NCBI RefSeq assembly: GCF_026151205.1
Contig: NC_087076.1
Location: 7,168,902 to 7,232,901, forward strand
DNA length: 64,000 bases
Direction: 5' to 3'
From: Bolinopsis microptera
Lineage: Eukaryota > Ctenophora > Tentaculata > Lobata > Bolinopsidae
Both the position numbers and the translations under genes were made by a program. The stretch's first letter is position 1. Each line of letters opens with the position of its first letter. The notes under the pieces were generated by a model, which saw nothing but the letters and a program-made list of their open reading frames with translations, ran no database searches and was not told the DNA's origin. This document shows, one piece after another, positions 1 through 29,289 of this stretch.

Positions 1-644
1 TGTTGGGAAGATCTCAAATGTTGATCTAGAGAGAAACTAAACAAACCATCTTGATGGCTGGAAGTACTCAAATGCTTGAAATTGATTGAAAATGCTTTTT
101 CCACCGGGCTGAAACAAAGTCTGCAATACAGGGTAAACTCAAAGTTATAAACCTTCTTGATGATTTCAGAAGACATTGGTCTAAACTTGGGAGTAAGGGC
201 ATTTGAGTGATCCATTTCGAGAACGGGTACATAGTGATAATTCTTAATATTATCGCCACAAATTTGTCTATGATGACGGTGATGTTTGAAAAGGTTTTGG
301 TCACCTGAAATGTGGGCAAAACATTCAATGCAGCATTTTGGAAGGACTGACGTATCGATATCCTCTGCTAATTTTTCCTTGTATGCATCAGCAGATATCA
401 TTTCGTTTTCATTGTACTCAACACCTTTTGGGTGATCATATGTCTCAATGAGGTTCAACTGTCTCCACAAGCTGTAGACCTGGTACTTGAGCTCAGTTTG
501 TAATGAAGAGAGTAGCAAACTATCAACTCCCTTGACAGTATTCTGTTTCTCTGCTAGACTAGAAACAGTTCCTTCCCCCTCAGTTAGGTTATCAGTTTTG
601 ACTCTCTTGTTGCTAATCTTCTCCGCTGAATCCAACTCAGCCAT
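1..644 (-). CDS. Partial U1/matrin-like zinc-finger protein (gene A), 3' end outside window
   Basis: An open frame starts at the ATG at 644 and stays open to the left edge for 214 codons, so the C-terminus is missing. The start MAELDSAEKISNK follows directly on a 3' splice site (pyrimidine run ending CACTTAG, then ATG). The N-terminal 45 residues are polar with a basic KRVK patch. Residues ~104-125 hold a first finger (CIEC, twelve residues, then a His cluster) and residues ~173-195 a second (CRLC, thirteen residues, H-x5-H). The two-finger arrangement resembles genes B and D further right, so I treat it as a member of the same family. Function is not known; U1-like fingers bind RNA, dsRNA or protein partners in spliceosomal and nuclear proteins. 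No match to a named gene is claimed. Confidence 0.75.
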   Translation of the reverse strand, partial: MAELDSAEKISNKRVKTDNLTEGEGTVSSLAEKQNTVKGVDSLLLSSLQTELKYQVYSLWRQLNLIETYDHPKGVEYNENEMISADAYKEKLAEDIDTSVLPKCCIECFAHISGDQNLFKHHRHHRQICGDNIKNYHYVPVLEMDHSNALTPKFRPMSSEIIKKVYNFEFTLYCRLCFSPVEKAFSINFKHLSTSSHQDGLFSFSLDQHLRSSQ

Positions 645-1118
645 CTAAGTGAAAAATGTCATCAAAATGGACAAATAGTAAGGTTATAACGCATATAAAT
701 ATAGAAATTTCCGATGAAAATTATTAGAATTCCTGGACAAATACTTTTAAACAAATGTACAGTGATATCAATCCATATGACTAAACGAGCAGTCCAAGTA
801 CCTCAGTATTAATCAGTAATCACTTTCTTAAATTGCATTACAAAAATAATAAAAACGGAAGCTTTCAAAAGTTATCACAAATATTAAATTCAATTTTAGT
901 GAAACCTATTCTAACATCCTAGACGTGACCAGAATTTATATAACTATATAAGGTTTATAAATAGCAGAACAGAGTTGAATTAACCCAATTATGCGATAGA
1001 ATACTGTACTTAAATCTGTAATGTATAAACTTACAACGTCTACAACCTTAAAGCTAACTTTAAATAACTGAACTTTGGACACAATATGATGTACCTAAAA
1101 AAGCACACCTAATCTACG
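645..1118. other. Intergenic spacer A / inner-membrane protease
   Basis: AT-rich spacer of 474 bp between two minus-strand genes. It must hold the 3' UTR of the protease gene and the outron, 5' UTR intron or promoter of gene A. No repeat, RNA gene or open frame is visible. Confidence 0.6.
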
Positions 1119-1622
1119 TTAACTCCACAAAGTAAACAAAACCCGCCCCTTAATAAGACCGAGAGGGAGGGGCCCATACTCTCTAGAATCTACAGAGTTA
1201 TACTTGTTATCTCCCTCTAACCAGCAGTAACCTGTGGGAACTGTTAGTTTGCCCTGGTACGCATGTTTACGCGCATAAGTCCCCTGGTTGTCCTCATCAA
1301 CATCAACCAGCTGACCAGCCAACGCTTTTACCCTCTTAACAATGTAGGCATCACACTCTTCAGGGTCATGTGCCAGGATGATGTCATTCTCTTTAACCTT
1401 GGTGACTGGAGTCATGAGGTCGATCAGGACACGTGATTTTGGGGATCTCTCGTTGAAGGTAGGGGCCATGCTTTTACCGGTGACAACTGCCGTGGTGGCT
1501 ATTCTGGAGGTGATGAAGAAGGTTGCTAGACTCGTGCCAACAACTGTGTATGTTATCTGCCGTTTGTGGTGGTTGAGAAACTGTACAACTCTCTTCCCAT
1601 GTGCTACTGCAGCAGACTGCAT
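1119..1622 (-). CDS. Mitochondrial inner membrane protease subunit (IMP1/IMP2-like signal peptidase, S26)
   Basis: Single-exon gene of 167 aa. S26 family proteases of the inner mitochondrial membrane cleave sorting signals from proteins delivered to the intermembrane space, using a Ser/Lys dyad. A hydrophobic segment at ~24-48 fits the N-terminal membrane anchor. The nucleophile motif GKSMAPTF puts the Ser at residue 51, and the YIVKRVKAL box gives the general-base Lys at residue 96. The C-terminal box, GDNKYNSVDSREYGPLPLGL at 137-156, is typical of the family. The last box and GLIKGR resemble IMMP1L more, while the extended loop after the Ser box resembles IMMP2L, so I do not choose a paralogue. 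Length matches the family (about 160-175). A modest acceptor (ACACCCAG) lies 5 bases before the ATG. It interrupts the zinc-finger gene run but is unrelated to it. Confidence 0.92.
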   Translation of the reverse strand: MQSAAVAHGKRVVQFLNHHKRQITYTVVGTSLATFFITSRIATTAVVTGKSMAPTFNERSPKSRVLIDLMTPVTKVKENDIILAHDPEECDAYIVKRVKALAGQLVDVDEDNQGTYARKHAYQGKLTVPTGYCWLEGDNKYNSVDSREYGPLPLGLIKGRVLFTLWS

Positions 1623-2827: not shown

Positions 2828-4720
2828 TTATTTCTTAATCACTCTCTGATCGTAGAAGTACTCTGGATGCATAACATTGCGAAGTTGAGACGGCACTGGA
2901 ACGAAGTCATTCCGGAAGTTCAACGAAAGTTCGTCCCACATGCACCAATCATGGAGTGGCAAGCGACGATATATTTGCTGGAATTTCTGTTTGTTCGTTT
3001 TGTGACGTTTACTTGACATATGAGAAGTTAACGCCGTGTCGGTCTGTGCTCGGACAATATCCCAGCACATAATGCAGAACACACTTATTGGGTACCTGCT
3101 CTTGGAAATCCTTGAGGGAGGCTTCGGGTTAAACTTCCACCAGTCTCCGTTCACAAAGCAGTGCATTTCGGTTTTGTAGTGAAGATCTCTCATTATGGTG
3201 GTAGGAAATTCTAACCTACATTCTTTGCAATATTGACTTTCTTTGACATGCTTTAGTTTATTCGTTGGAATATGTCTATTTGTTTTAAACTCAGTGGCAT
3301 CAATACCCTGGAAATTATTATTGAGCAGTTGATTCGCACGGTCAAGAATATTGGACGTATCGACTTCAAGGTCACGAGTATCAGATACAGAAGGGCCTGC
3401 TGAAATAATGTGATCTTGTTCCGTGGGTGTCTCTCCAAGAGGCAATGGCACTGATTGCTTAGCAATGGTCGTTATCATCTCCTTAACATCAGGTTCAGAT
3501 AGAATCCCGTGAATTAAATCAGCTATAGCATTGGGAGGACCTTTACTTGGCCCGGCTGTTGGACTTAGAATCCCAGGTTTAGTGTTACTGCTCTTGTTGC
3601 CAGAGGTTGTCAGAAGCGCAATGTTCTTTTGCAGATTGGTTTTCTTTGGAGCAGCTTTTTGTTTTGCTTTTGAAAACGGATTGTTTCTCGCCACTTTCTT
3701 AATCTGTGAACCTTGTTTTGCCGAAGCTGCCCCAACTTTACCAGCACCAACACGTGATACTGTATGCCTATCAATGGTGCTTGAAGACGAAGCCATGTTA
3801 CGTTTAATAAAATTGGTACTAGGCTTCTTGGCCGAACTTACAGTCCTTGAAGCAGGTGGTTGTTGTGGAGGAGCAGACTTTTTCACGGGAGGTCCCAGTC
3901 GTTCAGATAATGGCCTCGTTTTAGGCTTGAAAACTGATGGCTTTGCTTGAGTATTAGACAGAAGAGGTCTCCTTTTACATGCTGAACTAACCTCAGAAGT
4001 GCTACTTGAATGTTTATTCGGTCCCTTAGGTAATCCTTCATCAGGAGTGTGATGATATTTTCTTTCGTTCACTACCTCAGATTCATATGAGTTAGCATTC
4101 TGACGCTCTGTTGTTTCAGGCCTGGAATTATTTGAGTTTTTATGCTGCCTCAAATCAATTTTAAAACGCCGACCATTCATCAAAGGGTTAGCCATGTGAC
4201 ATTTTGGTCCATCAAGGGTTGGCGATTTTTTGTCATTACGATCGTCTCTGCTATAATAGTTAGAAGATGTTGATGGTTGTCTTTGGGGATAATCAGAAAC
4301 TTGATCAGTTTCATAATAACCCTCGTCTGCAGGGAGTGCTCTTCTGACACTCCGTTCATAGTTCCCTCGATCGGAGGAAACGTAACGACGTTTTCTACTG
4401 GTTTCATAGACATCTTGGCGGTCATGGTTATCATGATCCCTAGGATATTCAGGCCCATGTACGATTCGGTCTCTGGATTGATGAATTGTTCGCCGGAGAG
4501 GACCAACATACCTAGAATCCGAAGGTGATAAAGGTGATCTAGAAACCTCATAATCACTCTCAATTTTTTCGGTTGAGTCCTTTTGAACACGGATAACTAA
4601 GTCGCCGAAACCTGAATCTTTAATTTCTCTGCCCGGTTCGGGAGGTATTTCATCAAATGGGACCTCGTCACAGTCATACAGAAAGCTATCTCCTCTTTCA
4701 TCATATGGATTCAGGGCCAT
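2828..4720 (-). CDS. Two-finger U1/matrin-like zinc-finger protein (gene B)
   Basis: Single-exon gene, 630 aa. I place the start at MALNPYDERG because an in-frame ATG five codons upstream lies inside the polypyrimidine tract of a 3' splice site (CTATTTTCAG, then TC and the ATG). Most of the chain is polar and probably disordered, with Arg/Ser/Tyr/Asp-rich (residues ~50-170) and Lys/Pro/Ser-rich parts. A helix-like segment, LIHGILSEPDVKEMI, recurs in gene D. The folded part is C-terminal: finger 1 at ~497-519 (C-x2-C-x12-H-x5-H), linker with GDWW, finger 2 at ~547-571 (C-x2-C-x14-H-x5-H), and a tail with LPLHDWCMWDEL. Gene D has the same spacing, linker and tail. About 110 bases (roughly 3,990-4,096) are almost identical to gene C. 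Likely a nuclear RNA- or splicing-associated protein by family; the exact role is unknown. Confidence 0.85.
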   Translation of the reverse strand: MALNPYDERGDSFLYDCDEVPFDEIPPEPGREIKDSGFGDLVIRVQKDSTEKIESDYEVSRSPLSPSDSRYVGPLRRTIHQSRDRIVHGPEYPRDHDNHDRQDVYETSRKRRYVSSDRGNYERSVRRALPADEGYYETDQVSDYPQRQPSTSSNYYSRDDRNDKKSPTLDGPKCHMANPLMNGRRFKIDLRQHKNSNNSRPETTERQNANSYESEVVNERKYHHTPDEGLPKGPNKHSSSTSEVSSACKRRPLLSNTQAKPSVFKPKTRPLSERLGPPVKKSAPPQQPPASRTVSSAKKPSTNFIKRNMASSSSTIDRHTVSRVGAGKVGAASAKQGSQIKKVARNNPFSKAKQKAAPKKTNLQKNIALLTTSGNKSSNTKPGILSPTAGPSKGPPNAIADLIHGILSEPDVKEMITTIAKQSVPLPLGETPTEQDHIISAGPSVSDTRDLEVDTSNILDRANQLLNNNFQGIDATEFKTNRHIPTNKLKHVKESQYCKECRLEFPTTIMRDLHYKTEMHCFVNGDWWKFNPKPPSRISKSRYPISVFCIMCWDIVRAQTDTALTSHMSSKRHKTNKQKFQQIYRRLPLHDWCMWDELSLNFRNDFVPVPSQLRNVMHPEYFYDQRVIKK

Positions 4721-7383: not shown

Positions 7384-7641
7384 CAATATTACCAAATCTG
7401 TTACCGATAAAAATTTAAAACAAAGTTTTTATCTCTACAATAGAAATTCCAGGTAAAACAAATTTATACAGAGAGCATGCTGAAAACTGAACAGTTGAAT
7501 GTAATAACATGGCAAGCCTCCTTGGTAACACATGGTAAGCGCTATTATTTAAGATAATTGGATTAAAAGCAAAAGCTTCAACAAATGCAAATGGTCATTA
7601 CCTACTACTTAATAATACTGAAATCCATCACACGTCAAGTA

Positions 7642-9300
7642 TCATTCAACAGGGGCATTTTTCTGATTATCAGATCGAGATGTGGAAGTATACTCCTCAG
7701 GAAAATTGGTCTTTCTTGATCCACAGTAGGATGTTTTAACAGCAATATCGTATTTCTGTAAAATGTTTCTAACTTTTCCTTGTAAGCCAGTAATCTTATA
7801 TCGACACAGCCTTTTGTCGTGGTAAAACTGGCACTTCTGATGAGGAGCGAAATCACGGTTAACTTTACATTTTTTAAGTGGTACAACCGGGAAAGCGCAC
7901 TCGTCTGGAGCACTTGTTTTAGGAACTACTGCATATTTCAGAATCTTTTTACGGGATTTTTTGATTACCTGCTCCCAAAGAGTTTTAGAACTGAGCACAG
8001 TCTTGAACAGATGGGCAAGTTGTTTTGAGTGTCGTGGATGCATCAACCAAGCCACGATTTTATTCTTTGTATCTAAATCAGGGATAAAATTCAACAAATT
8101 TAAAAGAGTGTGTAACACTGGAGCCTCAATTTTGAGATAACGTTTTATTTCTTTACGTCTATCGTTTAAATCTAATGGAGTTTCCTCAATCAGTTTCTTA
8201 AAGTTACCTAATTTGGTTTTCGGTGCTGGTTTCGTTTTCTTATATTCTTGATAATGATGTGGTATTTCTCGCAAGCACTGAAGATAAGATGATCGGTCCT
8301 CTTTGATTGTAGCAGAATCCTCGAGATATTGAAGGTGGTGAGACAATGATTTACCTTTTACAGCATATCCAGGAGCGGTTTCAGTTTCTTGAGCAGTTTC
8401 TGCAACTGTTTCTACGACGAAATCAAGTTCGGAATCGGCATCGTCCTCCATATCTTGCTCATCTTCTTCAAATTGCATTTCTTCCTCGCTACATTCCATT
8501 TCATCCCCGTCCAAGGTCCCTTCTGGATGAAGAAAACTCTGACAATCCCAAACACCAGACAATGATTGATTATCCACTTCCAGATCAGGTTCATGTGTTT
8601 CATCAGGTTCATGTGTTTCATCAGCACATTCAGGAGCGGTTTCAGTTTCTTGAGCAGTTTCTGCAACTGTTTCTTCGACGAAATCAAGTTCGGAATCGGC
8701 TTCGTCCTCCATGTCTTGCTCATCTTCTTCAAATTGCATTTCTTCCTCGCTCCATTCAATTTTATCCCCGTCCAAGGTCCCTTCGGGATGAGGAAAACTC
8801 TGACAATCCCCAACACCAAACTGATTATTATCCACTTCCAAATCAGGTTCATATGTTTCATCAGTTATATCGTACGTAGAAACCACCATCATTGTTTCCT
8901 CACAACTGTCAGTATTACTTGAGGATATTTCAGGAAGTTCCAAACTCTCTGTACCACTAGCGAGAGGATTGTTTTTACTACAAGGGGGGAGTTGTTGAGA
9001 AGTTTCTAAGTGGGTAGAGCTACCACTTGCACTAGTAACATCAATCGAAGAGCCAACATGAGAAGTGCTACTTGCATGTTTGGTTGTCCCAGGTTGAGGT
9101 AATGCTTCATCAGGAGTGTGATGATATTTTCTTTCATTAACTACCTCCGATTCATATAAGTCACCTCTCTGATTAGCGAAGTCGAAACCAGTGGAGGGCT
9201 GTTGAGAAGTAGTTACATCAATCGGAGACGATATTCCATCCACCACATTTTCCCTGCTATCGGGCCTTTCAATACTGCAAGAGGGGTCTTCTGAAGACAT
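7642..9300 (-). CDS. Acidic-repeat protein with degenerate CCCH-like motif (gene C), chimeric with gene B
   Basis: Single-exon gene, 552 aa, with an acceptor (GGTTTCAG) 7 bases before the ATG. Residues ~49-64 (ESEVVNERKYHHTPDE) and the following Lys-His/Ser region are nearly identical to gene B at DNA level. Residues ~140-311 are very acidic and contain a tandem duplication with an 87-residue period (261 bp). From ~320 the chain becomes basic and helical. Around 465-491 there is a C-x9-C-x11-C-x3-H pattern; it has the order of a CCCH RNA-binding finger but an unusually long middle spacing, so zinc binding is uncertain. The paired C2H2 fingers of its neighbours are absent. No known gene is recognised. 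The intact 552-codon frame argues for a functional gene rather than a pseudogene. Confidence 0.75.
   Translation of the reverse strand: MSSEDPSCSIERPDSRENVVDGISSPIDVTTSQQPSTGFDFANQRGDLYESEVVNERKYHHTPDEALPQPGTTKHASSTSHVGSSIDVTSASGSSTHLETSQQLPPCSKNNPLASGTESLELPEISSSNTDSCEETMMVVSTYDITDETYEPDLEVDNNQFGVGDCQSFPHPEGTLDGDKIEWSEEEMQFEEDEQDMEDEADSELDFVEETVAETAQETETAPECADETHEPDETHEPDLEVDNQSLSGVWDCQSFLHPEGTLDGDEMECSEEEMQFEEDEQDMEDDADSELDFVVETVAETAQETETAPGYAVKGKSLSHHLQYLEDSATIKEDRSSYLQCLREIPHHYQEYKKTKPAPKTKLGNFKKLIEETPLDLNDRRKEIKRYLKIEAPVLHTLLNLLNFIPDLDTKNKIVAWLMHPRHSKQLAHLFKTVLSSKTLWEQVIKKSRKKILKYAVVPKTSAPDECAFPVVPLKKCKVNRDFAPHQKCQFYHDKRLCRYKITGLQGKVRNILQKYDIAVKTSYCGSRKTNFPEEYTSTSRSDNQKNAPVE
8371..8866. 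repeat. Intragenic tandem duplication, period 261 bp, in gene C
   Basis: Two in-frame copies, one starting at about 8,371 and the other at about 8,632, both opening with AGGAGCGGTTTCAGTTTCTT. They encode Asp/Glu-rich 87-residue units and differ by a few substitutions and small indels. Confidence 0.9.
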
Positions 9301-9876: not shown

Positions 9877-11484
9877 TCAAATTTTGTCATCGGGTAGAAT
9901 GCAAAACTTTACCTGATTTGGCCAATCAAATCCATCAACAGTAATTGATTTAGGTAGAGTCTGTTTGAAAGACTGTACATCCTTCCATAAACACCACTCG
10001 TGTAAAGGCCAAGTATCATAACATTCCTTCCAACAGGACATATTAAACTGATGATGAGAACTTTTTAAATGCTGGAACAATTGCTCATTTGTATCTATTC
10101 CGTGTTTCTCAAAACATATAATACACCAAATGAACATACGTTCACACCTAACGTTGTTGATAAACATAGGAATATACTTGGGAGGTTGCGTGTGCTTCGT
10201 CCACCAATCTCCAGAAATCATTTGGTGCAAGTAAGATTTCTCATGTGTACATTTTTCAGCCAGAGACACGAATTCTTGCCTGCAATGTCCACAGTACATC
10301 TCTTGGTTGATGTTTGCTTTTCTTGCCATTAATGGTAGGATCCTTTGATGGCCGTCACGTAGCAAGTATTTGGCTTTATAGTCAATCAACAGCATTTCAT
10401 TGCTCTCTGAACTGTCCTCGTCACAATATTTTATCTCGTTTTTATGAAATAGATTCTTTACGTACGATCCTAGTAAAGACATTTTCGACTGCTCAACTGT
10501 AGGCTCTAAAGGAACAAACTTGGAACTAGGAAGGGAGATTAGTGTCGATGAATCATGACTACCTAGTATTTTTCCTTCAGACGATCCGGGGATTTGCTCT
10601 TTACTTTCTTGATACACATTATGGCCGTCACCTAAAGTTGCATAATCACAATATGATGTATCACTGACAGAAGGAACCGCCTTGTAAGTATCTCCAATAA
10701 TCTGGTTGAGAAGATTTTTGGAAACAGATTGGGTGAGTTGTTCCTCTATCAATCCACTGAGCAGTTCAACACGACTACTCCCTGCTGGAATAGAAGCTAT
10801 CATAGATTTGACATCTGGAGCATTGAGCACACTAACGAGAACAGATTTTAATACATTGGCAACGTCAGGACCTTTTTTCTCCTTCGGAGCAGAATATTTA
10901 TCCATCAGGTTTGAGAGTTTAGGAGTTGGAGATCTATGTCTTGGAAAGTTGAAGCTGAATGATTTAGATTGTGATCTGGATCGTGATCTGGATCGTGATC
11001 TGGACCGTGATCTAGACCGTGATTTGGACCGTGATCTAGATCGGGATCTATTTATTTTGTTACGACTTGGAGAAAATCTGGATGTTCTAAAATTTTCAGT
11101 GCTCCTAGATTTGAATCTTGAGTTTTTGGGACTTCGTGATCTGTAGCTAGAAACAGTCGGCTTTGATTTGTGGATTTCAGCATCTCTTGAAGAACATTGT
11201 TGCATGTTTCTTCTATTAGAATCATTATTACAGTCTTTTATAGTTGAGAACGTGCTATGATTGAGATTGACCCTTGTACTTACATTGTAGTTAACTCGAG
11301 CACTTGTGTTTTGGGGCTCATATCCAAGGGAAGAAAACTTTGGGATAACAATACCACTGTGTGAGTCTGAACTAGATATCATATCGGCCATGTTATATTT
11401 TTCACGATCCACAAACTTCCTCTGCTGAGTAGGCTTACGAAGATATGGATCAGGAACATCAGGTATCTTCCTTCTTTTTCCCAT
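9877..11484 (-). CDS. RS-domain two-finger U1/matrin-like zinc-finger protein (gene D)
   Basis: Single-exon gene, 535 aa, starting MGKRRKIPDVPDPYLRK. A 3' splice site (CATTTTCAG) ends 11 bases before the ATG. Residues ~140-173 form an almost pure Arg-Ser dipeptide run flanked by further RS/SP dipeptides, the hallmark of splicing factors that concentrate in nuclear speckles and are phosphorylated by SR kinases. A helix-like segment with LNAPDVKSMIASI matches gene B. The C-terminal part has finger 1 at ~397-419 (C-x2-C-x12-H-x5-H), a GDWW linker, finger 2 at ~453-477 (C-x2-C-x14-H-x5-H) and a WPLHEWCLWKDV tail. Spacing, linker and tail match gene B, so B and D are clear paralogues. Expected to act in pre-mRNA processing; no direct evidence. 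Confidence 0.87.
   Translation of the reverse strand: MGKRRKIPDVPDPYLRKPTQQRKFVDREKYNMADMISSSDSHSGIVIPKFSSLGYEPQNTSARVNYNVSTRVNLNHSTFSTIKDCNNDSNRRNMQQCSSRDAEIHKSKPTVSSYRSRSPKNSRFKSRSTENFRTSRFSPSRNKINRSRSRSRSKSRSRSRSRSRSRSRSRSQSKSFSFNFPRHRSPTPKLSNLMDKYSAPKEKKGPDVANVLKSVLVSVLNAPDVKSMIASIPAGSSRVELLSGLIEEQLTQSVSKNLLNQIIGDTYKAVPSVSDTSYCDYATLGDGHNVYQESKEQIPGSSEGKILGSHDSSTLISLPSSKFVPLEPTVEQSKMSLLGSYVKNLFHKNEIKYCDEDSSESNEMLLIDYKAKYLLRDGHQRILPLMARKANINQEMYCGHCRQEFVSLAEKCTHEKSYLHQMISGDWWTKHTQPPKYIPMFINNVRCERMFIWCIICFEKHGIDTNEQLFQHLKSSHHQFNMSCWKECYDTWPLHEWCLWKDVQSFKQTLPKSITVDGFDWPNQVKFCILPDDKI
10963..11050. repeat. 12-bp tandem repeat encoding the RS run of gene D
   Basis: About seven copies of a GATCTGGATCGT-like unit with single-base changes. 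On the minus strand it encodes alternating Arg and Ser. The DNA-level regularity points to recent expansion by slippage. Confidence 0.85.
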
Positions 11485-12324: not shown

Positions 12325-13926
12325 TCAATAATTTCGTGTAACTAAAGTTCTCATAAGATCAGCAGGATTTGGCGGCTGAGAATTGTCTGAAGTAGTCACA
12401 GGGTTCATGAGTAGGACGGGCCTCCTTTTTCCTGGGGCACTATTCTCTGTACGAACCTCAAACGACTGAGGGTCTGAATTCAGATCGTCTTTAATTTGAG
12501 TTGAACGTGCTTTTGATTCTGGGACGATATCATTACGATCTTTATTTTCTTCATCCGGTATGACAATAGCCGTCTGCCCGGTTAATCCCGTATAATCTGA
12601 CGAATTAGATTTTTGGTTAAGAGCAAACAGATGATCAGGTGGAGCGAAACCAGGAGGAAGAAGGGTGTGACCACGAATTGCTGGCAAAGCTGGTGACGAT
12701 GAAGATTGAGTAGTAACATTCTTGTATTGATTAATCGCAGTTGAGTAATTAGACGTTTGTATTGATTGTTCATTACTGTATGTTAAAGTTGGTGGTGGGT
12801 TTGCTGGTGTTAAGTCGTGAACATTGGGAGGCAATCCTGCAATATTCGGCGGAAATTGCGGCATATTCCATTGGGGCATCATGGGCATCATCTGAGGAGG
12901 AGGAATCATAGGCATATGTCCGGGCGGGATCATGGGCATGTTTCCAGGGGGCATCATAATCCAGGGCTGGTCAGACCAGGGTCCACGTCCAGGAGGGGCA
13001 ACAGGTTGTCTGAAATGGTCATACGGGGGGTTGTCAACCATCATTGTAGCTTCTAGCGATATTTCATCTCGTGGTTTGTGACATTTCACACAAAGGTCAG
13101 GAGGCGAGTTGACATGAAACAATTTGCCACAGTGCATACATTGCTCATACTTAGCTGTGGCATTGACAGAGGCATTTGCTTTGCTGGGCACTTTATCAAT
13201 GTCAACTTTTAACAAATCTTTGATTTCAGTTGCGGATTTTGTATCCAAAATACCATTGACAATACTGTCAACTGAGACATTGAACTTTGACTCCAAGGTC
13301 TTTTTAAATGCTGCTAATTTCTTGTAATGCTCCTCTGTGTACTTTGTGTACATTTTGGACATGGTGGATGAACTACCATCTTGGCTGCGGTTACTGTCGT
13401 CAGCTTCTTTACTTCTGTGACTGCGACTACTGCTTCCAACTTCTTTGCGACTGTTGGTTCGGGACTCATTTTTGATTCTAATCTCAATATCAAGTTTATC
13501 CTCCTTATAGTAGCTAGATTTTCTATTCTTCGATCTCTCCATTGACCTTGATCTGGACCTATCTCTAGACCTATCTCTAGATCCCCGTGATCTGTGAGAC
13601 CGAGAACTGGATTGTCTTCTATAATGTCGTCTGTGACGTGATCTGCTATGAGATCTGCTCCTTGATCTCCTTAAAGAACCTCTGTCACTTGTGCTTATAC
13701 GTCGAGATTCCAGCTTTTTACGGAGATCACTTCTTTCCTTTACAACAACTAGATCTGAATCTTGTTCGTCGCTGGAAAACTTACTTCTCAAATGGGAAGT
13801 TTTAACTTTAGGTGGTTCATATTCTACTTCTGCTCTATCATCATGAAGGTATCCTTGCCTCGCATCTGTATCCGACTCTTCTGAGCTGCTGTCCCGGGTA
13901 ACATGAGAGGGCGAATAAGCTTCCAT
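12325..13926 (-). CDS. RS-domain, Pro/Met-rich protein with a Cys4 zinc ribbon (gene E)
   Basis: Single-exon gene, 533 aa, with a strong acceptor (TATATTTCAG) 14 bases before the ATG. Residues ~88-138 are an RS domain with RSRSHSRSRH and RDRSRDRSRSRS stretches. At ~261-278 a C-x2-C-x12-C-x2-C ribbon replaces the C2H2 fingers of the neighbours. Residues ~300-360 are very rich in Pro and Met, as in low-complexity regions of spliceosomal proteins. A helical segment before the ribbon, ending NGILDTKSATEIKDLL, is weakly like the DVK segment of B and D. An LDIEIRIKNES motif lies near residue 145. No named orthologue is recognised. The RS domain implies a nuclear RNA-processing role; family membership with A, B and D is likely by layout, not by a shared finger. 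Confidence 0.78.
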   Translation of the reverse strand: MEAYSPSHVTRDSSSEESDTDARQGYLHDDRAEVEYEPPKVKTSHLRSKFSSDEQDSDLVVVKERSDLRKKLESRRISTSDRGSLRRSRSRSHSRSRHRRHYRRQSSSRSHRSRGSRDRSRDRSRSRSMERSKNRKSSYYKEDKLDIEIRIKNESRTNSRKEVGSSSRSHRSKEADDSNRSQDGSSSTMSKMYTKYTEEHYKKLAAFKKTLESKFNVSVDSIVNGILDTKSATEIKDLLKVDIDKVPSKANASVNATAKYEQCMHCGKLFHVNSPPDLCVKCHKPRDEISLEATMMVDNPPYDHFRQPVAPPGRGPWSDQPWIMMPPGNMPMIPPGHMPMIPPPQMMPMMPQWNMPQFPPNIAGLPPNVHDLTPANPPPTLTYSNEQSIQTSNYSTAINQYKNVTTQSSSSPALPAIRGHTLLPPGFAPPDHLFALNQKSNSSDYTGLTGQTAIVIPDEENKDRNDIVPESKARSTQIKDDLNSDPQSFEVRTENSAPGKRRPVLLMNPVTTSDNSQPPNPADLMRTLVTRNY

Positions 13927-14451: not shown

Positions 14452-14455
14452 TTAA

Positions 14456-16520: not shown

Positions 16521-16524
16521 TTAA

Positions 16525-17703: not shown

Positions 17704-20700
17704 TCAATTAGGCTCAATATAATACTTGATAGGTGGTTTTGGCTGTTGACGAGCCATCCAGCGATGAAGCTGCTGTCGATGTTGACTAGAATCCTCGTGC
17801 CTGTCAATAGAGACTCCATTTCCCACCGGAGCATTACAAATAGTACATTGTACCCTGTCTCCAGCATAAGGGGGTCCTATAAGGTACTCACGATCAATGA
17901 AGTACTCTCCAGTGACCACCCTGTGACGATGAGTCATGGTGTGCCTGTCAACATCGTCCTTGGTCTTCAGGAATAGGGCACAGTATTTGCAGTTCCTCTG
18001 TCGAATCAAGCTCTCCCGACTTGCTGGCTTGATCTTTAGCAAAACATCTGGGTCTGCAAGGGGAGGTCCGAAAGGCTTGGAGGCAGCTGATTCGGAAGCC
18101 TTGTTAGAGCTGCCGTTGCTTGATCCAGAGTTCCAGCGAGATCGTTTCAAATCAGCAGTGACATCGAGGGAGGTTGTAGACGAGGTGGAGGAAGAGTTTG
18201 AGGAAGAAGAGGAATTTGAAGAAGAACTGCTGCTGCTTACAGTCACATCATCTTTCTTCCTTTTATATTCATCATATTTCTTGTTAAGCAAAACAGGATC
18301 ATAGTCCAAGCCATCATCTTTTATAAGACCGAGAGCTTTTTTAGGTTTGCCCTTCGTTGCTTTTCGCCTATCTTTACCATTAGTTACAGTACTACGATAT
18401 TGATTTAGATCCGATTTGCGTTTCCTCGAATCTAACACTGCTTCCTCGCGATATTTGTCTTCAACAGGGGAAGCTCTTTGTCTTCTTCCTTTTGAAGGCG
18501 GGTTGAAAATTTCGTCGTCAAGATGATTATGAAATTCCTGTTTGACGAAAGAAACTTCGTCAGAATCACGTCTTCTAGATCCGGAGTCGTATTTGTCCTT
18601 CAAAAGTTGCATTCTTATAGCTTTCTCGTCGTTTGAACTTGAAGAGGACGTAGGAGATACAGCAGCAGCTTTAGAGTCGACAGAATTAAACGTTTGGACT
18701 TTATGATATCTGTCAACTTTCTTGGAAGGTATCAAATGATCTGATCTTCTCCTACCATTTGTGAAGGAGTTTCGTCGTCTTGCTCTGGATAAACTTGGCA
18801 CAGTTTCACTATGTTGAACTTCCTGCTGTCTGTTGTCTCTGTTTAAGCCTCTCGAAGGCCTATGGTTGTTGTTATGTAACGATTCATTGGTCGATCTGGC
18901 ACTTTTGCCATGAGATCCGTTCAATCTGCTATGATCATGAGAACTTACGCCACCACTTTTGAACTGACAATTCCGCTCGGCCCTGTGGTTTAACTGACCC
19001 CTAGAATCAGTCTTCGTATCAGAAATACGATATGAAGTTTTATCACTGAAGGTTCTCGCCGGACTGTACACGTTTCTCCTTTTTCTCGTTATCTCCTCAT
19101 TAGTCACTGATCTATGGTTGTCTCTATTATTGTTGCTTGTACTTGCAAATTGTCTCGAATGATTTGACGTTCGAGCACGAGGGGGGCTCTGTCTTTTCTG
19201 TGGAACAGCGTGGTCTGACCGTCTTTGACGATCAATCTCCCGGTCATTCTCTTGCGGTCTACCTGCGATTAAGGAAAACTTAAAACTTTGTTTCCATTGA
19301 AGATAATATTAATAAAATTGTCCGGAATTTTAACTCGAAGTGGTCAGTGGTTCAATAATATTATGATAAACGGAAAGTAGTAAATTACTGATTTAATTAG
19401 AAGTCCTCAAAAATCTCTGTTTTGACTAGCTGGTTTCTGTATCAGATACAGTAGTATTATATTACATGCTCAGATGTGATAAGGGTTATGACTTATGAAT
19501 ACTACAGGGTGGGCCAAAAGTCAGTACCCATACGTTGGCCTTAATAGCTCCGCCGTGTTTTATATTTGAAAGCTGTTGCTTTGCAGATGGCATACTGTAC
19601 TTACTGGTTCGAGGATTCCGTCGTCAAAATTTAAAAATTCGAATATTTTAGACCACGCCCATTCAATATTAAAACACCTATATTGTTTTCTCTGAACATG
19701 CTGAACGCCTAATTTTTTCAGAGACGGTATATTATCAAATGTTGCATATGATCTAAAAACATGAGGCAAAACGGATTAGAAATGACGAAGTTATCAAGCA
19801 TTTTCTGTATCTCGTTAACAATATTGACTGGGTGATTATGTGACACCGTGACACGACACCTTAATTGGGCACCCTTAACAATTCCCATAATGTTTAACGG
19901 GGTAGTTAACGGGGGCACCTTATCACGTAATTAGGTAAACCAATCACCTGATCACACGTAATGAATAAACTCGTTATGCTTCATATCTCGGTCATCTGAG
20001 AAGGTACAGTTCTAATTCTTTCAGGACAAACGTAATTCGAATGGCCAAACACAATTCAATAACATTTAGCTTGATCCGACTATCCAAATTATCAAATAAA
20101 TGTGAAAATGAACCTCCATTTGAAAAAAATGAACGCGAATATTTTTCGAGTTGACAAATTCCTCGAACCAGTGGTGGTACTAAGTCATACCAGAAAGAAG
20201 TATTTAAATTGGGCACTCAGTGACTGAGCTATAAAGGCCAACGTATGGGTACTGACTTATGGCCCACCCTGTAGATATTATATAAGTCGTCAGCACCAAA
20301 AACGCAAGAAAACATTCTGAACGATTCATACCTAGTCGACTTTGGTCACGAAAGTGTTGACCATCAGAATGACTAGAGGAAGGAGCTCCGGGTTTATCGG
20401 ATTTGTTACTGGTGTCATCTGCCGAGATAGTTATCCGGATTTTGCCGTTCTGAAAATATTACAAAAATGTAATCTTAGGATCTAACCTAAAGCTTACTTA
20501 CCAACTTAAGAATGGGTTAGTTTCAATTATTGAACCAATTGTAACTTGAATTTTGTTACTCATTGTGATATCATTATAGGATCAGTGATTTGAAAATCAA
20601 GTCCTTGTTAACTTTATGAAAACGGAACTTAGTAAGAAATAACTGACCGATTTGCGGACGTCTCTGCCAGGACTATCTATGGTTCGTTGGAACCTAGGAT

Positions 20701-20746
20701 TGTTGGTATTCCTCAGACTTGTCACATTCCTTCTCTGTACTGACAT
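17704..20746 (-). CDS. Two-finger U1/matrin-like zinc-finger protein (gene F), three exons
   Basis: Exons 20,746-20,648, 20,449-20,332 and 19,262-17,704 join in frame to 591 aa. Donors read GTCAGT and GTATGA; acceptors are TTTTCAG and AATCGCAG. An acceptor-like GTGTCAG also lies 3 bases before the ATG. The N-terminus is MSVQRRNVTSLRN; exon 2 starts NGKIRITISADD. The long middle is rich in Arg, Ser and Asp, with a poly-Ser run near residue 370. The C-terminus has fingers at ~497-519 and ~545-567, both C-x2-C-x12-H-x5-H, separated by a TGEYF linker equivalent to the GDWW linker of B and D. It is therefore a third member of that subgroup, although it has introns and the others do not. Intron 2 holds a MITE. 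Likely nuclear; exact role unknown. Confidence 0.85.
19505..20271. mobile_element. MITE, copy 2, in intron 2 of gene F
   Basis: 767-bp element with inverted ends starting CAGGGTGGGCCAAAAGTCAG, extending some 45 bases, flanked by TA at 19,503-19,504 and 20,272-20,273. The body matches copy 1 at 6,109-6,843 in reverse orientation. No transposase frame. It fills most of the intron without touching either splice site. Confidence 0.88.
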
Positions 20747-21765
20747 TACCTGACACTTCAACACGTGCTAGACGTTAAATAAAATCATACTTTAAATATT
20801 TCTGCGCTTAATATGACGTTTTGAATATATATTTTACATAGGAAATATTATCGTGATTTCAAAGCAAATCTGCTCCCAAATGGTCTAAAAGGATCTTACT
20901 AATTCGCTCGCCCAAAAATTATCACATGACTTTGGTGTTTATGGTTTTGCAGCCGAACAAAACTGTTTTACATAAACCCTAATCCCAACACTAACCCTAA
21001 CCCCGAAGCTATTCATAACCCTAACCACAACCCTAACCCGAGCCCTTAACAATCGAATTCGTGTTTAACTAGCCTGTCACGTGACCAAAACAGTTTTTTG
21101 CCCACAACTCTCCAGGGAAGTATTTGTACCCTCCGTCATGAACTCATGGGGGGGGGGGGCGGGTGATTCGGAATCAGCGTCCAAAAATACACCGAAATAG
21201 ATTACTTTCATACCCTTACGGGCTTTTCACAAGAATCTTCTTAAAATTTCGGCGAGCGATTTAGTAGGAGCAGTTCTAAAAGGAAACACATGATTGACAA
21301 TTCAGGAAAATTTTGATTAAAGCATAATTAATGAAATACGATAATTCGTTCATTTGGTAATAAATAATTATTTAAATAATTATTAATAATTAATATAGTA
21401 TATGATTAATTATGATAATATATGATTAATCAATAGTCTCACATTCAATTAATGAGATTTAAAAATAAATGCAAATTGTAGCAAAATTCTCAAACAATTA
21501 ATGGATAACCAGGAAATTAGATGAATATTAGATGGAAATAATAACGTATATTGAATAATATGACTGTTAAAAACTCTTTAAGTCTAAAAATCACTGTTTT
21601 TGATGGAAACAAACAATTAATGTAACTTTGACATTACAATTTCGAGTGTTAACGTTAAAAACTATTTCTATATCATTATAAAGTCTACTTACCCACCACT
21701 GTCAAACACCAGGTTCCTGATAAGGAACACTTTATCATACCCATCATTGTCAATAAAATTTAGCT
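20747..21765. other. Spacer between genes F and G
   Basis: AT-rich spacer with a degenerate CCCTAA-like stretch (20,970-21,045), a poly-G run near 21,147 and very AT-rich DNA at 21,330-21,440. No coding signal. Confidence 0.5.
20970..21045. repeat. Degenerate telomere-like repeats
   Basis: Several CTAACCC and CCCTAAC units with substitutions and gaps. Weaker and older-looking than the run near 54,960. Confidence 0.5.
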
Positions 21766-23349
21766 TCAAGTAGATTTCCGAACATTCACCCTGTGAATTG
21801 CCGTAGATTTGTGGTCGGTGACGGACCTCATTGTATCCTCCACAAAAACATTACAAAAGCTACAAAAATGATAGCAAAAATGCTCGTTCTTCACATTTTG
21901 CCAGGTCAGTGTATCTAAATGAGGGTGATGGCTGATAGACTTGAACATGCCTGCAAGGCCAGGAGATTTAACAACTGGTGCATTAAATCGGGGAATAGCA
22001 TAGTTATCCTGAGCATTTTCAATGAAAAGGAAGAACTGCTGATGCCATTTGGTACATCGTTTATTCAGATGATCAGTTTTAGACTTGAAATTGTACGGAA
22101 CAACAGTTTCACAAGCATGACATATACACACAATTTGCTGGTTACGAAGGGCTATTGACCTAGGACGCGTATGATACTCCATTAAATGATCCATGAACTT
22201 GTGTTTTGGGACTGGAGCTGATTTTGCCGGACAATGTGCCCAACAGGCCACATACGGTTCCAAGCTGTTATTCAAATTTGGGCTTGGTTTCAAAACTATC
22301 TTCTGAATAAGCTTTGCACTAGACTGTCTCTTTCTTTTCATGGAAGAATGGAGGATTTTTGTTTTCTTCGTAGGTGAAGAAGTCGTGTTACTTATTTTAG
22401 GAGAAAGATTATCCTCTTTCTTAGCTGGTGCCAGAGATTTTTCCTTAACAGGTTTGTCACTGTTGTCTGTCGCCGATGATTCCGATTCATCTTCGATTAC
22501 AACTTCAATTTTTAGTCTCGATTCCGGGTGATCGTTTGTAATCGAATTGGAATCAAACGACGGATTTGGTCTGATACTTTCAAGTGAAGTTGAGTCAAGG
22601 ACTGAGGATGAAGAATGGCACCTCTTTCTTTTAGAAGGAGGTTGACACTTGTTTCTAAGATCACAACCTGGTGACGACGATCTGGCTTTTTTTCTTCGTT
22701 TGCCATTATTTCTATTTATGATCCAAACATTACCTGAATTTGTTGCATCATCACTGCACGCATTAAGTTGTTTCGACTGATTTATATCAACTTTGCTGAT
22801 AGCTACACTTTCGCAGCAGTCGGTGTCCTGACCGAGACCAGGAATATTTGATGGCTCGTTTTCGCCTTTGGAAAGTTTGATAATTGCATCTAATTTTGCC
22901 TTCTCAGCCTCTGTTTTAAGCAAGAGAGGCGAGTAATAACCTTTAACAGGTGGCAGCAATTGGATCGAAGGCTCATGAGAAAGTATGGGTAAAGGAATAC
23001 TATGGTCAACGATTACATTTGAAACTATTTCCATTCCCTCATGATCAGTAGACTCTGTGGGAAGTGTATTTGCATTTTGATTGTTCAATTTAGCAGAATC
23101 TTCTGAAAATGAAGTCAATATTTTTGGAACAGTTTTCTTGGAGTCAGAAGCACATTTTTTAACACGTTCATTGCTGATTGAACCACTTGACTGAGAGTTA
23201 GACGTCTTAGAGGCAGCAGTTGGACTAAGCAGCAACAAGTTGTTCTGTAATTGGTATGCTTGGCTCCGTGAGGTAAGGAGCTCTTCTATCTTACTCTGAT
23301 TGAATTCGATTATCGAAATCAGCATTTCCTCCTCAGCAGTTAAAGCCAT
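21766..23349 (-). CDS. Three-finger zinc-finger protein with basic linker regions (gene G)
   Basis: Single-exon gene, 527 aa, starting MALTAEEEMLISIIEFNQSK, with an acceptor (TTTGTACAG) 30 bases before the ATG. The N-terminal 40 residues look helical (ISIIEFNQSKIEELL). A long Ser/Lys-rich region follows, with nuclear-localisation-like basic clusters (GKRRKKAR, PPSKRKRC) and an IEVVIEDESES motif of SUMO-interaction type. C-terminal Cys/His groups occur at ~366 (C-x3-C then H-x4-H), ~407 (CHAC with distal His) and ~498 (C-x2-C-x13-H-x5-H). The last finger fits the U1-like pattern of the neighbours. Divergent but probably related. No known orthologue is recognised. Confidence 0.8.
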   Translation of the reverse strand: MALTAEEEMLISIIEFNQSKIEELLTSRSQAYQLQNNLLLLSPTAASKTSNSQSSGSISNERVKKCASDSKKTVPKILTSFSEDSAKLNNQNANTLPTESTDHEGMEIVSNVIVDHSIPLPILSHEPSIQLLPPVKGYYSPLLLKTEAEKAKLDAIIKLSKGENEPSNIPGLGQDTDCCESVAISKVDINQSKQLNACSDDATNSGNVWIINRNNGKRRKKARSSSPGCDLRNKCQPPSKRKRCHSSSSVLDSTSLESIRPNPSFDSNSITNDHPESRLKIEVVIEDESESSATDNSDKPVKEKSLAPAKKEDNLSPKISNTTSSPTKKTKILHSSMKRKRQSSAKLIQKIVLKPSPNLNNSLEPYVACWAHCPAKSAPVPKHKFMDHLMEYHTRPRSIALRNQQIVCICHACETVVPYNFKSKTDHLNKRCTKWHQQFFLFIENAQDNYAIPRFNAPVVKSPGLAGMFKSISHHPHLDTLTWQNVKNEHFCYHFCSFCNVFVEDTMRSVTDHKSTAIHRVNVRKST

Positions 23350-24434: not shown

Positions 24435-27400
24435 TTACCTTCTAACATTGGTGTAAACACCACTGTATGTAGGTTTGTGACTGTAAGTGGGGCCACCGTA
24501 AGAAACTGCTGGAGGCATGGACTGAGCATAAGACAATGCTGGAGGCATGGACTGAGCGTAAGACAGTGCTGGAGGCGTGGACTGTTGATCACCTTGCTTC
24601 AGTTTATCGTATGCTGAGCTGTAAGTACTTCTGGTATTGTCAGAGTAAGATTGGTTTGAAGGAGGTGCATTGTTAAAAATGCTCCCAGCTTTACTACCAG
24701 AGGATGGCACAAATTCATCAGGAGTAGGCTTTCTTGCCATGTTCATAATGGGTCTGTTTGGCCATGAAATTTCTCGAGATGTCTGTTCAACATAACTACT
24801 ATGATGGGAATCAAAAGGAGGATTACGGCTTTGTGAAGTGTTTTCAGAGTGAGGATTCTGGTCACCAAAGTTTTGACCATGACTAGCTGGGACCTTGCCA
24901 GACCCAAACCAGGGTTGTTGTGGCTGTGGCTGAAAATTTTGCTCTGTTTGGTAACTGCTCCTATTTGAATCACCATGATTGAACTCTTTACGTGCTTCAA
25001 TGTTGGGAAACTTATTTGAACCAACATCCAGATTTTTGAATAACTCAGTATTTGAATTACCAGGAGTGAGTCGATTGAACCCTGTAGGTACGTCATTGTT
25101 GGGAAACTTATTCGAACCAACATCCAGATTTTTGAACAACTCAGCATTTGAATCACCAGGAGTGATTCGATTGAACCCTGTCCGTACTTCATTGTTGGGA
25201 AACTTATTTGGACCAACATCCAGATTTTTGAACAACTCAGCATTTGAATCACCAGGAGTGATTCGATTGAACCCTGTCCGTACTTCATTGTTGGGAAACT
25301 TATTTGGACCAACATCCAGATTTTTGAACAACTCAGCATTTGAATCACCAGGAGTGATTCGATTGAACCCTGTCCGCACTTCATTGTTGGGAAACTTATT
25401 TGGACCAACATCCAGATTTTTAAACAAATCAGCATTACTATATTTTTGATGCTCATTGATTCCACCATATTGGCCAAAGGACTGAGATCCAATGTTTTGT
25501 TGAAATTTGTCACCACTTGAGCTTCTGTCGGAACCAAATGATCCAGAATTCTTTCCATAATGGCTGATCGATGGAGCTAATGTAGAGCCGTACGTGTAAG
25601 GACCTTGGAATGGAGCAGAATGTGAGGAGGTGGGACTGAAACTCTTAACCCTTTCACTTGAATTGTCCCTGCTCGTTCTCGGTATTTCTGGTCGAGAGGG
25701 ATAGTTTTGATAGCTTTGCAAATTATTTCCATGGTTATAAGTGTCATTCACTCCTCGATTGGGAAACTGCTCTTGATTCCTAGAATTCATATTCATAAAA
25801 GGTGGAGGGTCCCTCTTTTGCAACATCTCTTGACTATTAATCATACCAGCAATACTGCTGTTTGGTGAAGATATTGGAATATCATGTATGGCAGATGCGG
25901 AATTAGGCACACGAGAGGAATAAGGTAGGGGAGCTGATGCCAATGGAGCTTTTTGCAGTGGAGAAGAAAATCTTGTGGTAGGGTCCCGATAATATGGTGC
26001 ATTTTGTGACTTCATTTGTTCTGGAGTTGAAGGCCGATTTTGATACTTGAAAGGAACTGAACCCGGCACTGAAAAGTAAGATAATATTATACATCAAAAC
26101 ATGACAAATTGAATAAATTTAGTTTGCAGCACACATATAATACATGACTCATGAAATCCCATTTTTTATTGCTGTTTTTTATCATTTAGTGCAATTTAAG
26201 ACACTGTGAAAGCACAATTGTAATAATACTGACCAAGTTGAGTTTGACTGGAGCTGTAAGGTGGGAAACTTGAACGCTGTGATTGAAAAGATGAAGGAGG
26301 CTGATTGACCATGCTTAATGCCATGTCAGGGGTTCCCTCATTTTCATAATTTGTAACTGTAGCTGTAGGAGCATCTCTTCCAATACGATCTCTGTTGCGA
26401 TCCATCATTACTTCCATCTGCTTGATAGTTTTCATGGCTGATACAATTTTCTTCGAAGTTTCTCTTCTTTTTTTGTGCTCTGCAGTGTTGAGTTGAACAT
26501 TTACGTCAGGTTGTGTGACTTTAACATAAATCAAGTAATGCTTCTTCGACCTAACATGCTTTTCTACTTGAATCTCAGAGTTGCAGTTGATTTTGCACAA
26601 AGAGCAGTGGTATGCATCCATCACGTTATCATCACAATCCTTTACCGTTTTCACTGACATGTATTCTCTTCCAACAGCAGGTGTTTCCGACTCTTGTATT
26701 TCTTCCAGTTGTTCTCTGATTTTGTCCTCTTGATCATGCAGTATCTCAGGTTCTGGAACTACTCGTCCTATTTTAACATACGCTTGAACTAACGCTTGAT
26801 GACTTCTGTGGTTTGCATGCTCATTATATTTCTTTTGCCCTCGACAAATGATATCACACAATTTACACTTTATGACAAGGTCATGTCTTTTGTATTTTTT
26901 AACATTTGCTGAATCAGTCTGAGACAGTTGCCGTATTTTTGTTAGGACAGCTTCATGATGTTTTTTGCCATTCAAATGTTTTCGAAAGTGGGACACATCG
27001 CTCGACTCAATCATGCATAGCAAACAAACGTGATACCCAACTCTTTGGGATACATACTGGGCTTGTATCTTATCGTAATTACTTGGTTCAGGCTCAGGTT
27101 CAGGAACATTGTGCAGAAGAGGGGTTCCGTGATTACCATTATTCTGATGCATTGCTTCTGGAGTAGGATTCTGATACAACCATGGCTGCTTCTGTTCCTG
27201 AGTTTGCACAGGGTAGCTTATTGTAGCCTTGAGGCTCTGTTCAACTTCTGGTCGAGTAGACTTCATTACTTCTTTACTTTTGCTGCGCCGATGCGTATGA
27301 TTAGTTATTTTATTGTCCTCTTCTTTTTCTTTTATAGACTCAGCTTCTATCACAACTTTAGCCACCAGAGTCTGATAACGTTTGATCTTCTTTTCAAGAT

Positions 27401-29289
27401 TAGATGGATCAATGTTGTTAGAAAGAAATGATTTGATTCTGTTCTCAATTGCTTCAATCAGTTCTTGGACATCTGAAGAACTCTTTAGGCCATCAACTCT
27501 TGCTGCAAGTGCTTGAAACGCTTCTTCATCCTCATCTTTACCTAACTTGATTTGAATTATTTTACTTGAAGATTCTTTGGCATGGTCATCTACTTCAACA
27601 GGTTTTTTCCTATATGCTGGTGTTCTGCCATCTTCAATGTCATTCTTGGCTTCCTCATCCGACATTTCCATATCAGAATGACTGACGTCACTAACTTTTT
27701 GCTCCTCGGATGCAACTGAAATGTTATCAATACAAGGACTAATCGCTTCCATATCAAATGGATCAGTTTTCATTTTCTTAATATCAGTGGAAGCATCAGC
27801 GCTGGTATTGTATTTCAGATGAAGTTTTTCTAAAATTTGAGGTGACCCCCTTCCATCACTTGAGTCTGAACTAGCTGAACGAAGATGGCTTTTCTTTCTG
27901 GTCTTTGTGTTTGAAGGATTGATGATTCCCCGTTTTTCTAAAATAGATTCCATAGCCTCACGAAGTTTTTTCTTCTTATCTTCGTCAATTGGGCCACTGT
28001 GCTGAGCTTGAAGCATTTCTTCAGCTTGTTTCTGTATTAGATTCAAAATGGCATCCTTAGATCCAATACTATTTTCTTGGTCCAATAGTGATGTAAGGCT
28101 ACTTTGAGCATTTTCAGGAGATGTTTTCTTTGGGGAGAGGGATCTTTTTTCAGTTGTTGTAATTTTTGTTGGTGATCTCGATCTATCCTTTGGGCGTTTT
28201 GATGGCCTATATTTTCCAGATCCCCTAGATTGTGCAGGTGACCTATTTCTGTAGGGAGATCTGGTTCTCCTTGGGGATCTAGATCTGCGATCTCTCTTTT
28301 GTGATTGTGGTGCAACTTCTTTGATTTCAGGTCTATTAGTTTCCAAATGGTCACGACTTTTGTGAATACTGACATCTTTTGAAGTTTGTTTGCTTCTACT
28401 ATCAAAAACTGGTCTTTTCACATAAGTCGGCTTCCGAATTGAATTGGTTGGCCTTTGGGCTCTTTGATCTACATTACGTTTTCTTACATTGAAACTCTTT
28501 GTTAAAATGGGGCTAGAAGAAAGACTGTTATCGGGAGATTCAGGCTTTTCAAGTAATGGTGCAGGACTGCTTCTTCCATTAAATGTTATTGTCCTCTTAA
28601 TTCTCACTACAGAACTGGCAGGATTTTTATATGAAGGCTGTTTCTCCTCAGCTTTGTTTTGCACAACGTTTGGTGATTCAGGCGGAAGCTCATCAGCAGA
28701 AATGTCAGTCAAAGGTGACAAAGCGTCATCATTGATAAGTATTGGTTTAGAAGAATCTTCATTGCTTCTTTCCGATTTTGAAGGAGATGATTCCTTAGAA
28801 TTTGCTTTGAGAGTTTTGACAATTTTTCCATCGACAACAACAATTTTGGTTCCATCAGCACGTTTGATAACTTTACCAAATGTCTTCTTTTTACCTGAAT
28901 CATTGATTAACTATTCATCATGATCATCATAACTTTTCTAGGAATCAAAAAATTTAAATGAATATAATTTTTATTTATGCACATTTTCATGTCAATTTGT
29001 TCATATTATAATTATGTACCGAGTCACGAATTTAGATTTTCAGATCATGTAAGATCATTTTATTGTGAATCTGCTAAGTAACAATTTGACGATTCGTTTC
29101 TAATTTCAAACCTTGAGACGAACCCACGGTAGCATAGTTAGATCTCGTTGGTTGGGTAAAGATTACAGGCTTGACAGGTTCTGAATTCTTTAGCGGTTGT
29201 GATGATCCACCAGCCGGGCGGTAAGTTATTCCATCTTTACGAATTATCTTTGTGACTTTCTTTGGAACTGCTTTACTTGTTGCAGACAT
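24435..29289 (-). CDS. Large RS-domain protein with three U1-like zinc fingers (gene H)
   Basis: Exons 29,289-29,112, 28,894-26,234 and 26,068-24,435 join in frame to 1,490 aa. Donors are GTTTGA and GTCAGT, acceptors ATGATTCAG and TACTTTTCAG. A TGTTACAG acceptor lies 17 bases before the ATG. An RS domain with many RSRSP units spans ~258-318. Three classic U1-like fingers (C-x2-C-x12-H-x5-H) start near residues 684, 735 and 822, the second followed by a basic/helical region. Acidic and coiled-coil-like segments lie before them. Residues ~1,160-1,300 hold five 32-residue tandem repeats containing ELFKNLDVGPNKFPN. The tail is rich in Pro, Ser, Tyr and Gln with YAQSMPPAL repeats. The layout suggests a nuclear, spliceosome- or RNA-associated scaffold, loosely like vertebrate matrin-type zinc-finger proteins. 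Orthology is not established. Confidence 0.88.
24990..25440. repeat. 96-bp tandem repeat in gene H
   Basis: Five in-frame copies encode 32-residue units around LFKNLDVGPNKFPNNEVRTG. Two copies are identical at protein level and the outer ones diverge, which points to recent array turnover. Confidence 0.92.

Follow-up and report, generated by a model that had tools for sequence, protein, structure and literature searches.

Five, probably six, of eleven adjacent genes beside ZFR in Bolinopsis microptera appear to be old, strongly diverged duplicates in two finger-protein groups

The window, by which we mean the whole stretch of 64,000 nucleotides that was analysed (C5:7168902-7232901), carries the larger part of a run of 11 adjacent genes on the minus strand: Z1, Z2, A, a peptidase S26 gene, B, C, D, E, F, G and H. 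On that strand (from right to left) they follow one another as H, G, F, E, D, C, B, peptidase S26, A, Z2, Z1 and ZFR; at either end of the run stands a gene with ZFR-type fingers, ZFR to the left and H to the right. The sequence-only reading had correctly placed genes A to H on one strand and had taken them for a local, tandemly expanding family of splicing-type nuclear proteins; beyond that account, gene A is truncated by the window edge, and the run extends to the left through Z2 and Z1 to ZFR. The features are (window positions unless prefixed):

left of the window, beyond Z1, across L001 and L002: ZFR (zf-met, jaz and DZF_C above cut-off)
L001:5732-7927, left of the window, minus strand: gene Z1, next after Z2, 731 aa, B/D-like two-finger layout
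L001:8338-9384, left of the window, minus strand: gene Z2, next after A, 348 aa, five fingers
1..644, minus strand: N-terminal part of gene A with fingers 1 and 2 (352-aa ORF, cut by the window edge, ending at about -414; third finger outside the window)
1119..1622, minus strand: peptidase S26 gene (PF10502, E 5.6e-20), a bystander inside the run, which we take to be IMMP1L
2828..4720, minus strand: gene B, 630 aa in one coding ORF, with a two-finger module at the C terminus (fingers 3161-3229 and 3002-3076)
3989..4103, minus strand: segment of B common to C (DNA alignment to 9055-9172, 82%; core of 76 nt, 88%)
7642..9300, minus strand: gene C, 552 aa, without fingers; B-shared segment, then an acidic tandem duplication
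9877..11484, minus strand: gene D, 535 aa, RS domain and C-terminal two-finger module (fingers 10225-10293 and 10051-10125)
12325..13926, minus strand: gene E, 533 aa, with an RS domain, a CxxC...CxxC pair and a Pro/Met-rich stretch; no C2H2 fingers
17704..20746, minus strand: gene F, modelled exons 20746-20648, 20449-20332 and 19262-17704, 591 aa (hand count), C-terminal two-finger module
21766..23349, minus strand: gene G, 527 aa, two fingers whose loops are x13, finger 1 having a long H-x8-H
24435..29289, minus strand: gene H, modelled exons 29289-29112, 28894-26234 and 26068-24435, about 1490 aa (hand count), local RS stretch and three zf-met-type fingers

The ORFs of the ten genes (Z1, Z2 and A to H) measure 348-904 aa, against a longest simulated ORF of 191 aa in 60 simulations. 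Eight of them (A, B, C, D, E, G, Z1 and Z2) read as one coding ORF each. For F and H, models of three exons keep the frame open; their splice sites were picked by eye, and the end of H exon 1 is one of six donors that keep the frame. F and H are thus probably not intronless. In A, B, C, D, E and Z1 the start codon is preceded, within 14 nt, by a candidate AG acceptor (by eye, with no control), which a putative intron in the 5' UTR or a putative trans-spliced leader would explain; a tunicate spliced-leader 16-mer gave 0 matches, which leaves the trans-spliced leader a candidate.

Several repeats lie among these genes. A mobile-element-like unit with inverted ends (CTACAGGGTGGGCC) is present in two copies of opposite orientation (79%), one between B and C (6104-6846) and the other in a modelled intron of F (19502-20276); the former is enclosed by the arms of an inverted repeat (5355-5543 and 7213-7383, 85%, about 1.7 kb apart, likewise between B and C), giving a foldback-like nest. 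In the long gap between F and E a 62-nt unit occurs three times, as diverged copies (74%; 14684-15070); the gap between G and F contains a short degenerate GGGTTAGGGTT-like stretch (about 20970-21040, minus strand), and the last modelled exon of H an array of 96-nt coding repeats (24977-25456, 82-92% to the reference copy). Elsewhere in the window, plexin-like ORFs at about 39000-49500 (minus strand) presumably belong to a plexin gene, and a Pfam scan of part of one WD-repeat-like ORF gave nothing. The plexin-like ORFs, ZFR and long genes split by introns mark the DNA as that of an animal. Across the window neither Rfam (at gathering scores) nor tRNA scans found any match.

Fingers were located with a loose pattern (C-x2-C-x10-16-H-x3-8-H) and a strict one (C-x2-C-x12-14-H-x5-H). 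By the loose pattern A has three fingers (two in the window), B, D, F and G have two each, H has three, and E and C have none, as anticipated for these two (E being RS-rich and C acidic). Over the 84 kb scanned, 22 of the 25 loose matches fall in run genes and ZFR (one in ZFR; 0 in L002); the remaining matches lie in short frames, one at 40124 and two on the plus strand. The strict motif occurs 14 times in 40 kb (10 kb of left flank plus window positions 1-30000), against a mean of 0.05 across 60 first-order Markov simulations, and the fingers first described in A, B, D, F, G and H are thereby confirmed.

Z1, B, D and F have a common design, in which a long arm precedes two C-terminal fingers; these are separated by 22-33 residues that include an aromatic linker, and a tail of 24-65 residues comes after them. 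The two-finger layout and linker noticed earlier in B, D and F were recovered (VNGDWW, ISGDWW and VTGEYF, respectively), as was the Trp-rich tail of B (LPLHDWCMW) and D (WPLHEWCLW); the Gly-acid-aromatic-aromatic linker motif is less exact in Z1 (MEGSWK). In Pfam the fingers of B, F, G and Z2 score below the cut-off (B 14.1 and F 12.0 for jaz, cut-off 22.6; G 16.8 for zf-U1, cut-off 22; Z2 13.5 for zf-met, cut-off 21.2), and for D, Z1 and A no zinc-finger family matched with E as high as 1. Structure prediction of the D and B module (two sequences), which had been suggested as a check, returned a mean pLDDT of 36.1 and no usable model. The PDB yielded no informative relative for any of the queries H, B/D/Z1, G, A/Z2, E and C; the best match of B/D/Z1, G or A/Z2 has E 0.0056 and falls on the ordinary C2H2 fingers that Z2 carries.

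Kinship was assessed by pairwise comparison, shuffling, profiles and genome search. All-against-all BLASTP linked B-D (1.3e-18), B-C (2.8e-12), D-Z1 (6.8e-10), A-Z2 (1.8e-9) and B-Z1 (9.4e-8), followed after a gap by B-F (0.014) and Z1-Z2 (0.030). In ligand-preserving shuffles (every C and H fixed; 28 pairs of eight modules, 400 shuffles each) the count was 0/400 for B-D (z = 19.4), Z1-D (11.1), Z2-A (6.0) and Z1-B (6.0), 1/400 for Z1-F and for Z1-Z2 (z = 4.0), 2/400 for B-F and A-D, and 19/400 for F-D (z = 2.1), with z at 2.6 or less in all pairs that involve G or H. A profile of B/D/Z1 matched F at 85% (E 6e-6, 88 columns spanning both fingers), against 19.8% for the best of 10 C2H2 decoys (E 1.2e-3, 20 columns), 0.2% for G and 0.6% for H. 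These measures make the paralogy of B, D and Z1 secure and that of F, joined to them by profile only, likely. B and D also have a second, upstream motif in common (KGP...PDVK-MI; score 55 against 24.0+-4.6, 0/300 shuffles). The idea that such a motif extends to all of B, D, Z1, E, H and C was dropped, as of 15 pairs tested only B-D holds (next D-Z1, 12/300).

The genome searches covered 264,652,675 bases (264.65 Mb) in 232 contigs (E up to 10, best candidates scored; queries B, C, E, F, G, Z1, Z2 and part of H). The matches listed for the B module are B, D (3.1e-14) and Z1 (8.6e-4) only, and those for the Z1 module are Z1, B (1.3e-3) and D (0.34) only; Z2 recovered itself, then A first (1.4e-5) and 27 weaker matches (0.0098 and up), with ordinary C2H2 fingers in all 10 of these that were inspected. 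The expectation that local paralogues are closest to each other is thus borne out for B/D/Z1 and A/Z2 (queries B, Z1 and Z2), and the genome matches listed hold no further copies. For F they comprise itself and two at about 4, with no other cluster gene among them.

A and Z2 form, by the same measures, a second paralogue pair. Their profile is unspecific, because ordinary C2H2 decoys (six of 10 at 69-89%, via the two ordinary C2H2 fingers of Z2) outscore F (61%). The B/D/Z1 profile reaches A/Z2 at 23% (E 9e-4), so that the two groups are not joined clearly above the decoy level. The idea of one local family thus holds for B/D/Z1, for A/Z2 and, by profile, for F, without a clear bridge between B/D/Z1/F and A/Z2, and is not supported for G and H in shuffles, profile and genome search. 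Since the copies are only 19-28% identical as proteins where their modules align, and a DNA self-comparison found no similarity among B, D, F, Z1, A and Z2, the duplications appear to be old, and the tandem expansion that had been read as ongoing finds no support. Five of the 11 genes, probably six, are on this evidence old and strongly diverged duplicates that fall into two finger-protein groups.

In that self-comparison the sole DNA-level similarity between run genes is the block of 119 nt (82%; 42 aa at 69%) that B and C have in common outside the fingers, which points to one later exchange or partial duplication. Further along, C contains its acidic tandem duplication (8361-8606 and 8622-8864, about 245 nt, 93%), and the genome matches listed for it are itself and B. 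The Cys-containing C-terminal part of C (residues 459-504) resembled NDUFB7 in the PDB search (E 0.34 and 0.51), probably by chance, and we set this match aside because C had no Pfam match with E as high as 1. Gene E encodes a finger-free RS protein, for which the genome matches listed are itself and three frames broken by stops. For G they are itself and one match at 0.95, and by the shuffle, profile and genome tests used it appears unrelated to the other run genes.

Gene H resembles ZFR in having three fingers in a ZFR-like order and spacing (by eye), and differs from it in that Pfam found no DZF domain in H exons 2 and 3. Its third finger scores 32.9 bits for zf-met (cut-off 21.2), the others being weaker. 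The last 324 aa of exon 2 matched C5:10889143 (6e-8), C5:10887454 (0.011), C5:3295413 (0.019), C5:3317253 (0.031) and ZFR at C5:7160070 (0.395), all five on C5; the first two lie inside L019 (C5:10886801-10890300), where two adjacent three-finger ORFs, which we take to resemble the finger part of ZFR (spacing by eye), have fingers that pass zf-met. By profile H matches the ZFR finger at L001:1118-1378 (82%), whereas the modules of B/D/Z1, A/Z2, F and G reach 5.1% or less against the two ZFR fingers tested, and the profile tests do not support a relation, also considered, between the two-finger module and either ZFR or H. Given its closer relatives elsewhere on C5 and its match to the ZFR finger, H would not be a sister of B and D; most likely it is a gene that has diverged while keeping fingers of the ZFR type. 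The left-flank ZFR exceeds the cut-offs for zf-met (25.9 bits), jaz (24.4) and DZF_C (39.6), with a DZF_N fragment below its own (13.7 against 27.1). ZFR-like zf-met finger genes or fragments were noted on C5 at L019, C5:3295413, C5:3317253 and C5:7160070. In a genome search with zf-met (150 of 381 candidates scored), C5, which makes up 8.9% of the assembly (hand arithmetic), holds seven of the best 12 of 132 matches, a cut chosen after viewing that list, and five of 10 after merging into loci.

We compared the number of RS and SR dipeptides in each protein with 300 shuffles of the same protein. D (34 against 11.2+-2.9) and E (31 against 13.3+-3.2) clearly exceed their shuffles; in H the total is not striking (20 against 13.8+-3.3), and the local maximum is 9 per 40 aa against at most 6. 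The counts are not significant in Z1 (17 against 14.3), B (12 against 10.7), F (15 against 17.6), G (6 against 5.7), Z2 (4 against 2.6), A (5 against 2.4) and C (6 against 3.4). Hence the splicing flavour that had been extended to the whole cluster is confined to three of the ten proteins (D and E clearly, H locally), of which only D belongs to the two-finger family. Through these tracts D and E, and locally H, resemble SR-related proteins, from which the run differs in the other seven and in having no RRM match in Pfam. The arm of Z1 is rich in arginine, acidic residues and serine.

The reading that we favour, and to which we would give about an even chance, is that of an old local array that arose by tandem duplication and strong divergence and acts in RNA processing through arm and double finger. 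It would comprise two families, one of two-finger genes (Z1, B, D and probably F) and one of multi-finger genes (A and Z2), interspersed with genes for which no kinship was found (peptidase, E, G, and C apart from its B segment). The two-finger proteins would combine a long N-terminal arm, presumed disordered, with a compact, putatively zinc-binding C-terminal double C2H2 module. The arm (RS-type in D; Arg/acidic/Ser-rich in Z1) may bring the presumably nuclear protein into RNA-processing condensates or complexes, the double finger and its tail may bind one structured RNA or one partner protein, and after duplication the copies may have come to serve different partners and roles. We infer RNA processing to be the likeliest role for a disordered arm with a C-terminal double finger. 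An RNA-binding class stays presumptive for the module because no finger of Z1, A, B, D, F, G or Z2 scores above a Pfam cut-off, and a protein is as plausible a ligand as RNA.

The same low identities (19-28% between modules) and loss of DNA similarity would also fit ancient paralogues: the duplications would predate the lineage, and Z1, B, D, F, A and Z2 would each have their own orthologue in other animals, in a conserved but poorly annotated block rather than a lineage-specific family. Conserved genes in or beside the run (ZFR, peptidase S26) fit this explanation, which we consider possible but less probable; modules that stay under the Pfam cut-offs, and a best PDB match that falls on the ordinary C2H2 fingers of Z2, speak against it, both as weak arguments. 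A more ambitious joint claim, which we regard as unlikely, sees in the run a lineage-restricted nursery of nuclear RNA-binding proteins with a new double-finger fold, a Gly-acid-aromatic-aromatic linker and a Trp-rich clamp tail. Such genes would have duplicated beside ZFR, been joined to RS or other disordered arms and become regulators that diverge under conflict, and the lineage would then possess its own set of RNA-processing regulators.

Somewhat less likely still would be fast-evolving genes for defence or genome surveillance (against transposons or viruses), which would bind nuclear RNA or chromatin through their fingers and diverge through conflict, not through a changed splicing role: the strong divergence of the neighbours, the segment common to B and C and the mobile-element-like repeats in the run are compatible with this, yet no sequence feature is specific to defence. 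An origin of the intronless ORFs from mobile elements, whether still live or domesticated, is very improbable and largely refuted by copy number: single-ORF genes do lie close to MITE-like and foldback-like repeats, but the genome matches listed for B, G, F, C, E and Z1 include no dispersed copies, and F and H fit multi-exon models. The least credible view, that unrelated C2H2 genes merely lie side by side and owe their likeness to zinc ligands and low complexity, is consistent with G and H against the rest, and with E, but is refuted for B/D/Z1 and A/Z2, which exceed the ligand-preserving shuffles and are each other's best genome matches (queries B, Z1 and Z2).

The C-x2-C-x12-14-H-x5-H spacing is known from the fingers of U1C, matrin, JAZ and ZFR, and splicing-type proteins are usually regarded as conserved single genes. 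The run fingers agree with the zf-U1, zf-met and zf-C2H2_jaz classes in spacing, although H and ZFR alone reach the cut-offs. Like the mammalian KRAB-ZNF clusters, the run consists of local duplicates on one chromosome, but it differs in its few fingers, in the U1/matrin spacing (B, D, F and Z1), in the lack of a KRAB match and in being old and deeply diverged. Published work describes those clusters as arrays of clustered C2H2 zinc-finger genes (PMC2443715), the U1-like finger as typical of RNA-binding proteins (PMC2889900) and RS domains as linked to speckles and RNA processing (PMC9479744). Arrays of duplicated finger genes are therefore known, whereas among the titles and abstract openings listed we encountered no old array in which two families with such fingers lie next to ZFR, nor did any similar cluster stand out (weak evidence).

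If the favoured reading of an old, diverged array is true, RNA-processing factors would here evolve in the manner of clustered families, as diverged double-finger copies with changing arms, and the two-finger module would constitute a new domain family to define. Being compact and confined to one strand, the array should be easily followed in related species.
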